Shown here one piece after another: positions 1,670 to 34,626 of a stretch of DNA of 44,716 nt. Within the stretch, counting starts at the first letter, position 1; each line of letters begins with the position of its first letter. A model generated the notes under the pieces. It was not told the origin of the DNA. It saw only the letters and a program-made list of their open reading frames with translations, and did not search any database. The position numbers and the translations under genes were made by a program. This DNA comes from Chloroflexi bacterium bin125 (GTDB taxonomy: Bacteria; Chloroflexota; Dehalococcoidia; Bin125), in assembly GCA_002239025.1 (NCBI GenBank), contig MPNM01000023.1, positions 1 to 44,716 on the forward strand, read 5' to 3'.

Positions 1670-2476
1670 ATGCCCATTTCACCTCGGCGACGCCGACGTA
1701 TGCAGCGCGAACACCAGCTTCGCCAGAATGGATACACCCTCCAACAGATCGCCGACAAGCTCAAAGTCTCCGTCGCCACCGTCCACGCCGACCTCCGCGC
1801 GCTCGAAACCGATTGGGATGACTTCGCCCAATCGCTTCACAACGACCTCCTGCTCCAGCAAATCACACGACTCAACCGCCGTATCAGCAGGCTCAGCAAC
1901 AGTCCCGTTCCAGGTCACGAACTCTGCCGGACCATCGAAGACCGCCTCCGGCTCGAGGCACTGTTTACCCAGAACCTCAACGCAGCCAACCGCGAACTCC
2001 GCTTGCTCCTCCGCCAACTCTCGCCCAGCGCTCGGCCCGCCAATGGCGAAGTCATAGACATCGAACTCGCCGACTACCCAGACCACGAACTCGCCGACCC
2101 TGAACGAACCCGAGTAAACCTGAAAAAACCTGAAAGCCTTCAGGCCGCCATCCCGCAGAAAACGCAGGAGATCAAAGCCTCAGAGACCCAGAAAAAAAAC
2201 TCACCCGAAAACCTGAATCCTGACCTGCCCCGCAACACTGGACGCAACAAACCTTGTCCCTGCGGCAGCGGACAGAAGCGCAAACACTGCCATCCCCAAC
2301 ATTCCAGCTCTCCCCCTCTGGGGGAGATGTCACAGAGTGACAGAGGGGGCCTCCCACTCGACATCGAAGCCGAGGTCCTACGCCTCACCAGGCAGTTTGA
2401 GGCCGCGGAACGAAACGACGGTCAACTCGCCCAGGTCAGGACTCAGAAGCAGCTAGCTGCGCTCCCGGGGAAGTGA
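1670..2476 (+). CDS. HTH protein with C-terminal SEC-C zinc motif
   Basis: This 268-residue protein has an N-terminal helix-turn-helix (residues about 9-46: REHQLRQNGYTLQQIADKL then VSVATVHADLRALE), a helical middle, a lysine- and proline-rich linker (about 140-195) and a SEC-C zinc-binding motif, GRNKPCPCGSGQKRKHCH (about 191-208; C-x-C-x8-C-H). SEC-C modules bind zinc and occur at the end of SecA and in many regulatory or accessory proteins. Immediately after the zinc motif the frame runs through a genomic hairpin repeat (2308-2349) that codes PPLGEMSQSDRGGL, so that segment is probably an insertion rather than ancestral protein. Start chosen at ATG 1670 with AGGAG 7 nt upstream. Function is unknown; a DNA-binding regulator is likely. 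Confidence 0.7.
   Translation: MPISPRRRRRMQREHQLRQNGYTLQQIADKLKVSVATVHADLRALETDWDDFAQSLHNDLLLQQITRLNRRISRLSNSPVPGHELCRTIEDRLRLEALFTQNLNAANRELRLLLRQLSPSARPANGEVIDIELADYPDHELADPERTRVNLKKPESLQAAIPQKTQEIKASETQKKNSPENLNPDLPRNTGRNKPCPCGSGQKRKHCHPQHSSSPPLGEMSQSDRGGLPLDIEAEVLRLTRQFEAAERNDGQLAQVRTQKQLAALPGK
2308..2349. repeat. Hairpin repeat (single arm) inside a coding region
   Basis: CTCCCCC/GGGGGAG (2310-2316, 2320-2326) forms one hairpin, TGTCAC-AGA-GTGACA (2328-2342) a second, and CCCCCTCT (2312-2319) can instead pair with AGAGGGGG (2342-2349). The same unit occurs as inverted pairs near 22.3 kb and 34.5 kb in this window. Here only one arm is present and it keeps the reading frame of the HTH/SEC-C gene open. 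Similar units translated as (P)LxGEMSxSDRGG are seen in proteins of other bacteria, from general knowledge. Confidence 0.85.
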
Positions 2477-22165: not shown

Positions 22166-22309
22166 GGTGAACTCCCGCCTATTGCACCGCCTGTTTCGAC
22201 TGTAGCGCAGATGTTGTCGAAGCTCAGTGAACGCGCATTCCGTACCTACCGCAGCGAGATGCTGGGCAATAGGCGTCCATCCAACAACTTCCAGTCCCCG
22301 CGTAACGGA

Positions 22310-22483
22310 GACCTTTGAAGAACTCCCCTTCTCCCCCCTTGCGGGGGAGATGCCGAAGGCAGAGGGGGGTCCTCTGTTCGTGATCCCTATCCGGTCATTG
22401 TCAGCCGACCCCACCCCTCTGTCACTCCGTGACATCTCCCCCCGCAAAGGGGGGAGAGGGGATTCGGGAGTTATTCAAAGGTC
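22310..22483. mobile_element. MITE-like inverted-repeat element (copy 2)
   Basis: The 174-bp element has terminal inverted repeats GACCTTTGAA (22310-22319) and TTCAAAGGTC (22474-22483), extended by AACTCCC/GGGAGTT. Inside are two inverted arms, 22330-22369 and 22414-22457, each of the form CTCCCCC...GGGGGAGATG-hairpin-AGAGGGG. The left arm carries TGCC-GAA-GGCA and the right TGTCAC-GGA-GTGACA as inner hairpins. About 44 nt of unrelated sequence separates the arms. It codes for nothing, and has the look of a small element moved in trans. The rest of 22166-22526 holds nothing else that I can recognise. Confidence 0.7.
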
Positions 22484-22526
22484 GCCGTAAATCGTGGACG
22501 GGGCGCCATCGGGGAGTTGGGAGACC

Positions 22527-34469: not shown

Positions 34470-34626
34470 TCCTACTCCCTTCTCCCCCCCTTGCGGGGGG
34501 AGATGTCACTCTGTGACAGAGGGGGGGTCAGCAGGCAGCAACCAGATGAGGGTCTCGAACTCGGACCCCCTCTGCCTTCGGCATCTCCCCCGCAAGGGGG
34601 GAGAAGTGGAGGATTAGTCAAAGGGC
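34470..34626. mobile_element. MITE-like inverted-repeat element (copy 3)
   Basis: Two inverted arms, 34481-34527 and 34566-34604, repeat the units of the 22.3-kb element: CTCCCCCCC TTGC GGGGGGAGATG in the left arm followed by TGTCAC-TCT-GTGACA, and the right arm with TGCC-TTC-GGCA. The right terminus keeps CCTTTGACTAA on the minus strand, close to the CCTTTGAATAA of copy 2; the left terminus is changed. About 38 nt of different sequence separates the arms. The remaining parts of 34363-34683 show no gene. Confidence 0.68.

Follow-up and report, generated by a model that had tools for sequence, protein, structure and literature searches.

A dispersed two-armed repeat with triplex-type arms in a Chloroflexota genome and the neighbourhood of such arms with stand-alone DUF559 genes

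The palindromic repeats of the window, which is the whole 44.7 kb stretch of DNA that was analysed (contig C9 in a Chloroflexota MAG of 3.68 Mb), are best explained as copies of a single asymmetric unit. This unit is a dispersed, non-autonomous element of roughly 178 bp, in which two unlike arms, A and B, are inverted with respect to each other. Motifs of the same kind as the arms have a specific neighbourhood with stand-alone DUF559 genes, and this neighbourhood is found across phyla. The reading that we prefer, and consider fairly probable, is that of a non-autonomous element with triplex-type arms which a DUF559 nuclease would spread in trans.

The window was searched with a motif detector for a pyrimidine block, its complement and the mirror, blind to the coordinates of the first-pass annotation. 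It returned five arms and no other place in the 44.7 kb, all within a few bases of the arms annotated before; the match at 22412 extends to 22503 via a chance block. The A type, with the inner hairpin TGTCAC/GTGACA, is found at 2308-2350(+), 22412-22459(-) and 34480-34528(+), and the B type, with TGCC/GGCA, at 22328-22369(+) and 34565-34606(-). Both paired copies consist of one A arm and one B arm, as had been noticed from the sequence at first reading. The features are the following:

22308..22485, no strand: whole two-armed element of ~178 bp, with end pairs 22308-22326(+) and 22467-22485(-) and the layout of the ~60 genome copies
22308..22327, plus strand: left terminal inverted repeat GAGACCTTTGAAGAACTCCC, TTTGAA type
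22328..22369, plus strand: B arm, made of the pyrimidine block, TTGC loop, purine block, inner hairpin TGCC/GGCA and mirror purine block GAGGGG
22370..22411, no strand: inter-arm spacer, less conserved (0.77)
22412..22459, minus strand: A arm, inner hairpin TGTCAC/GTGACA
22466..22485, minus strand: right terminal inverted repeat GCGACCTTTGAATAACTCCC
34480..34528, plus strand: A arm of the second two-armed copy
34529..34564, no strand: spacer of the second two-armed copy
34565..34606, minus strand: B arm of the second two-armed copy
2308..2350, plus strand: solitary A arm within ORF 1670-2476

The element at 22308..22485 is flanked by a DAHP synthase gene and a CTP_transf_like (coaD-like) gene. 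The second two-armed copy is intergenic, with an AIM24 gene on one side and an alpha/beta-hydrolase gene on the other, and its ends are degenerate. The solitary A arm is composed of a hairpin (2309-2316/2320-2327), an inner hairpin (2328-2333/2337-2342) and a free third-strand tail (2343-2350). The ORF 1670-2476 has an HTH_11 and a SEC-C domain; the arm lies directly after the SEC-C motif and would encode SSPPLGEMSQSDRGG. An Rfam search of the window gave a tRNA as the sole match.

Searching the whole host genome with the core GGGGAGATG gave 255 matches, compared to 6 for the reversed control pattern. The pattern of an A arm facing a B arm was matched 58 times (1 in the control), of which ~55 were true elements by eye, while the A/A and B/B pair patterns had 0 matches each in the host genome. 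Further copies of the family thus exist outside the window: the host genome has ~60 two-armed copies, each with one TGTCAC arm (A) and one TGCC arm (B). Such an A/B rule was already known for the intrastrand triplex motifs of E. coli, the TMECO / PIT elements of Holder et al. 2015, where 5 of 5 inverted motif pairs join a type A with a type B (PMC4666352), and it is extended here to ~55 pairs. As A/B pairs are the only ones found, without A/A or B/B, the stem difference in the window reflects two arm types. The compensating stem changes claimed from the window hold across genomes (see below), but the five arms of the window are not repeated independent compensations, because A/B is a fixed two-type architecture common to all copies. 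When the sixty copies were read together with their flanks, the identity was 0.96-0.98 in the arms, 0.77 in the spacer and 0.71-0.79 in the ends.

In about 16 of the 60 copies (among L032-L091), and also in L002, the inner loop of the B arm contains a further hairpin, GCCTGCCCCGGGCTTGACCCGGGG(G)CAG. It is also found alone and probably represents a different dispersed palindrome that is nested in the arm.

Within an arm, a pyrimidine block is followed by the complementary purine block, a small hairpin and a mirror purine block (CTCCCC/GGGGAG/hairpin/GAGGGG). Single-stranded DNA folding of all five window arms gave a C/G hairpin with an adjacent inner hairpin and an unpaired GAGGGGG tail. Across the fetched loci, the third block mirrors the second (GGGGAG followed by GAGGGG) in 290 cases and repeats it directly in 1, a ratio that is partly ascertained, since the fetch pattern outside the own genome included the mirror block. 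A mirror block is required for a purine-motif triplex, but not for an alternative duplex pairing. In its order the arm belongs to the class II intrastrand triplex motifs, with a hairpin as its second loop, and it may form a triplex in the cell. The two alternative pairings first proposed for each arm (CTCCCC/GGGGAG or CCCCTCT/AGAGGGG) are better explained as the strands of one triplex, because the third block mirrors the second. The mirror test is weaker in other motif families, with 14 mirror, 5 direct and 13 tied cases, and the GGGGAG arms are therefore where the triplex reading is strongest.

The standard triads of the purine motif are T.A*A and C.G*G, and T as a third-strand base suits a C.G inversion. 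Among 142 distinct arms the outer triads are T.A*A in 119, G.C*T in 5 and C.G*G in 3. The bases flanking the two purine blocks, which the phylum search pattern left free, are coupled (A/A, G/G, C/T) in 70 of 70 stem-bearing arms; one exception, C with G, is found in another arm listing. Inner stems of at least 3 bp are present in 70 of 96 distinct arms (shuffling expects 2.8), with 21 different stem sequences, so that the inner-stem variants covary in other copies and across phyla. Selection on a hairpin fold and the spread of a non-autonomous element, which the first-pass annotation had put forward, are likely because there are further copies, the stems covary and the arms are conserved above the spacer and the ends.

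Exact A arms (25 fixed bases) were found, among the matches listed, in Clostridia, Rhizobiales, Caulobacterales, Chloroflexota, Bacteroidetes and Spirochaetes. Those in Rhizobium, Hoeflea and relatives, again among the matches listed, presumably resemble the RIME repeats of rhizobia. A/B pairs also exist in three genomes of the same genus, G203, G204 and G210, in few copies and with another spacer, and most other genomes have none. Gene-less A/B pairs are present in ~60 copies in the window's species and in 0-8 in its sister species, and with few or no A/B pairs in related genomes the window's species had its own burst. In the distant Chloroflexota genome G095 the GGGGAG-type arm pattern is matched 54 times, perhaps through a second independent burst.

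Some of the copies are intergenic and fold well, as functional RNA or terminator hairpins without mobility would. We regard such hairpins, or chance, as extremely improbable and as the least probable of all explanations considered, given the copy number, the A/B rule, the nesting, the spacer subfamilies and the exact match of 25 fixed bases across phyla.

Most copies have imperfect terminal inverted repeats. Two end types, GAGACYGATGCATAAC and GAGACCTTTGAANAAC, were distinguished, and some copies combine the two. L056, L072 and L078 are such hybrids, with one GATGCAT-type and one TTTGAA-type end, which suggests recombination between subfamilies. Copies with GATGCAT ends are mostly located within C/G hairpin loops, for example CTCCCCC-TTGCA-GGGGGAG, and the copies can be nested, with copy L081 sitting within the arm of another copy. 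In the GATGCAT class (17 copies) the flanking 5 bases agree at 59 of 85 positions, compared to 45 +/- 4.8 when re-paired (p=0.002), and no duplication signal was seen in this class at 3, 4, 6 or 7 bases. The 5-bp duplication is exact in just 6 of the 17 copies. In the TTTGAA class, target duplications were looked for and none were seen.

Outside the GAGAC ends, several TTTGAA-class copies (L033, L036, L039, L053, L061, L065 and others) have a further inverted repeat in common, CCCAGTCCCCGC...GCGGGGACTGGG. The idea that the flanks of this class are insertion hairpins was rejected, as there is no duplication and the flank is common to copies; it probably belongs to the element.

The imperfect terminal inverted repeats and the partial 5-bp duplication signal of the GATGCAT class would fit an ordinary MITE, on which a DDE transposase would act via the GAGAC...GTCTC ends and whose DUF559 neighbours would be incidental. 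We consider this explanation improbable. The host genome contains no longer element with these ends, the ends are the least and the arms the most conserved part, many copies keep the core without a recognisable end, and the association with DUF559 in other phyla, where the ends are unrelated, would be left unexplained. No transposase that would mobilise the repeat, as first suggested, was found, nor a full-length element combining a transposase with the element's ends in the host genome, and a DUF559 nuclease is the better candidate enzyme.

We also rejected a long element between the element's ends, as single ends are separate short elements. A 2.8-kb end pair at C23 encloses, by eye, an electron-transfer-flavoprotein-like gene pair and no transposase.

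An inverted palindrome doublet with conserved arms and a variable spacer is likewise known from REPINs (PMC3116915), which would point to an element of REPIN/BIME type that a RAYT (Y1 HUH transposase) moves. Against this, the only Y1/RAYT gene of the host genome (L092) has its own GTAG-type repeat (GGGCGACC..GGTCGCCCCTAC) at its 3' end, the arms have no GTAG tag, and the motif was found at 1 of 30 Chloroflexota RAYT loci from the genome set used for DUF559, with a near rate equal to the far rate and hence no excess. We rejected the RAYT as mobiliser and consider this type of element very improbable. The A/B copy L043 is inserted beside a GTAG-type repeat like that of the host RAYT gene.

The first lead to DUF559 came from reading the cross-phylum loci: in a record from Hoeflea, an A arm adjoins a DUF559 gene. 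In the 866 kb of sequence that surround exact A arms of several phyla, 4 of 4 DUF559 homologues are located 40-187 bp from an A arm, and no RAYT homologue was found there. We then have 31 Chloroflexota DUF559 loci, 29 from other Chloroflexota genomes and two of the host, of which 24 have a motif within 300 bp (<=300 bp) and 17 have motifs on both sides. There are 48 motifs near these genes (2.63/kb) and 5 far from them (0.087/kb, beyond 500 bp; p ~1e-24), and the difference persists in non-coding DNA only, with 3.8 vs 0.2 motifs per kb. Markov-shuffled flanks gave 2.45 motifs compared to the 48 observed. In 7 of the 31 loci a motif was not detected, several of them having long-loop C/G hairpins. 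In other phyla the motif is present at 11 of 13 DUF559 loci (Alpha- and Gammaproteobacteria, Cyanobacteria, Deinococcus; plasmid collection). Among relatives, 15 of 17 stand-alone DUF559 genes have the motif, compared to 2 of 10 weak PF04480 matches, most of which are within long proteins.

Individual loci illustrate the arrangement. In the same-genus genome G210 (L328), the DUF559 gene lies within a tandem array of A/B elements, three directly upstream and one directly downstream. In an alphaproteobacterium (L135), a complete pair of A/B type lies upstream of the DUF559 gene, a Clostridia locus (L141) and an Asticcacaulis locus (L146) have arms on both sides, and the DUF559 gene of Sinorhizobium sp. 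K101 has two exact-A-type arms on its downstream side. In E. coli K-12, ycjD (1351407-1351760) is 168 bp from the published TMECO no. 9 (1351204-1351239), with a chance probability of ~0.003. The host genome has two stand-alone DUF559 genes without an A/B pair; one (L211) is enclosed by arms of the GGGGAG type, in the C and G classes, and the other (L210) by CCCTCTCCC-type motifs. In Photobacterium sp. GJ3 (L281), an array of twelve triplex-like motifs was seen in a 3.3-kb stretch away from the DUF559 gene. A search of the open-access literature for a link between DUF559 and repeats, or for CTCCCCC repeats, gave nothing relevant.

By profile, DUF559 matches PDB 3hrl of the same family at E 5.4e-37 and, at E 1.6e-5, the homing endonuclease I-Bth0305I. 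The structure predicted for it, with a pLDDT of 87, matches 3hrl, I-Bth0305I (E 2.6e-5) and, more weakly, Vsr. Across 46 sequences of several phyla, the residues E12, D41, E52 and D54 do not vary. The DUF559 partner is thus predicted to have the fold and catalytic residues of a Vsr-like homing endonuclease. The Caulobacter DUF559 protein VsrA drives the SOS response in cells without a methyltransferase, and its authors propose a role as a Vsr-type mismatch-repair nuclease (PMC12907096).

This similarity also fits an explanation in which the motifs are target and not cargo: DUF559 would be a homing nuclease with triplex motifs as the insertion site of its gene, and the motifs would multiply via replication slippage or recombination. 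Homing genes normally occupy their own target site, and the instability of the E. coli motif was ascribed to replication (PMC4666352). Slippage does not, however, explain the burst to ~60 copies compared to 0-8 in sister species, nor that the A/B units of L328 are tandemly arrayed around the DUF559 gene. We consider this explanation unlikely, though the strongest of the alternatives.

In the preferred model of spread in trans, the C-rich block of each arm would pair with the G-rich block, and the mirror G-rich block, brought round by the small hairpin, would lie in the groove as the third strand. Arm-flanked DUF559 genes would be the autonomous form and the gene-less A/B elements the form mobilised in trans. 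The DUF559 nuclease may recognise an extruded arm and cut nearby. Repair would then copy the arm pair into C/G hairpin loops at other sites, frequently those of other arms, with ~5-bp duplications left in one end class. The main weaknesses of DUF559 mobilisation are that no DUF559 was found in G203 and G204, which have A/B elements and are incomplete MAGs (89-95%), that the host DUF559 genes lack A/B arms and that the duplication signal is partial. The 7 Chloroflexota DUF559 loci with no motif detected, the E. coli motif with no triplex detected in vivo and the repair role proposed for the Caulobacter protein also count against the model. We see about even chances for the wider proposal that DUF559 proteins are the mobilising enzymes of triplex-forming repeats throughout bacteria. 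Such a system would be distinct from both RAYT/REPIN and DDE/MITE systems, and the A/B element would be its two-armed non-autonomous form.

DUF559 proteins are common and conserved. Pfam assigns the family no function, and apart from the Caulobacter case (PMC12907096) no open-access paper searched does so. The neighbourhood makes them a candidate partner for triplex motifs and the first testable candidate mover of these repeats. The question can be tested in E. coli K-12, where ycjD lies beside one of 23 listed motifs.

Several known systems share features with the element. It is short and non-autonomous like a MITE, with terminal inverted repeats and, in one class, a partial signal of a short target duplication; it differs in that a cognate transposase was not found in the host genome and that the arms, not the ends, are conserved. 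As in REPIN/BIME and RAYT systems (PMC3116915, PMC3733652), two inverted palindromes with conserved arms and a looser spacer form the unit, and a partner nuclease gene is flanked by repeats. Heterodimers are found in some REPIN families as well, among them GTAG REPs (PMC3733652). Here, the arms have no GTAG or CGTC tag, and the partner is a PD-(D/E)XK DUF559 protein and not an HUH enzyme. I-Bth0305I and Vsr (PDB 3r3p, 1vsr) are alike in fold and catalytic region, whereas the present DUF559 genes stand alone between repeats, outside any intron, and cleavage of the arms is putative. With TMECO / PIT elements, for which alone triplex folding (CD/NMR) has been published and whose E. coli motif gave no detected triplex in vivo (PMC4666352), the arms share the class II order of pyrimidine, purine and mirror purine blocks, the C.G*G and T.A*A triads, and a dispersed, cross-phylum occurrence with inverted pairs of the unlike types A and B. 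The authors of that work report never having found mobility genes near the motifs, whereas DUF559 genes are adjacent to the motifs here and also at TMECO no. 9. The second loop here is a 10-20-nt hairpin with a covarying stem, compared to loops of 1-6 nt as the limit of the ITxF search, and the arms are part of an element of ~178 bp with ends of its own.
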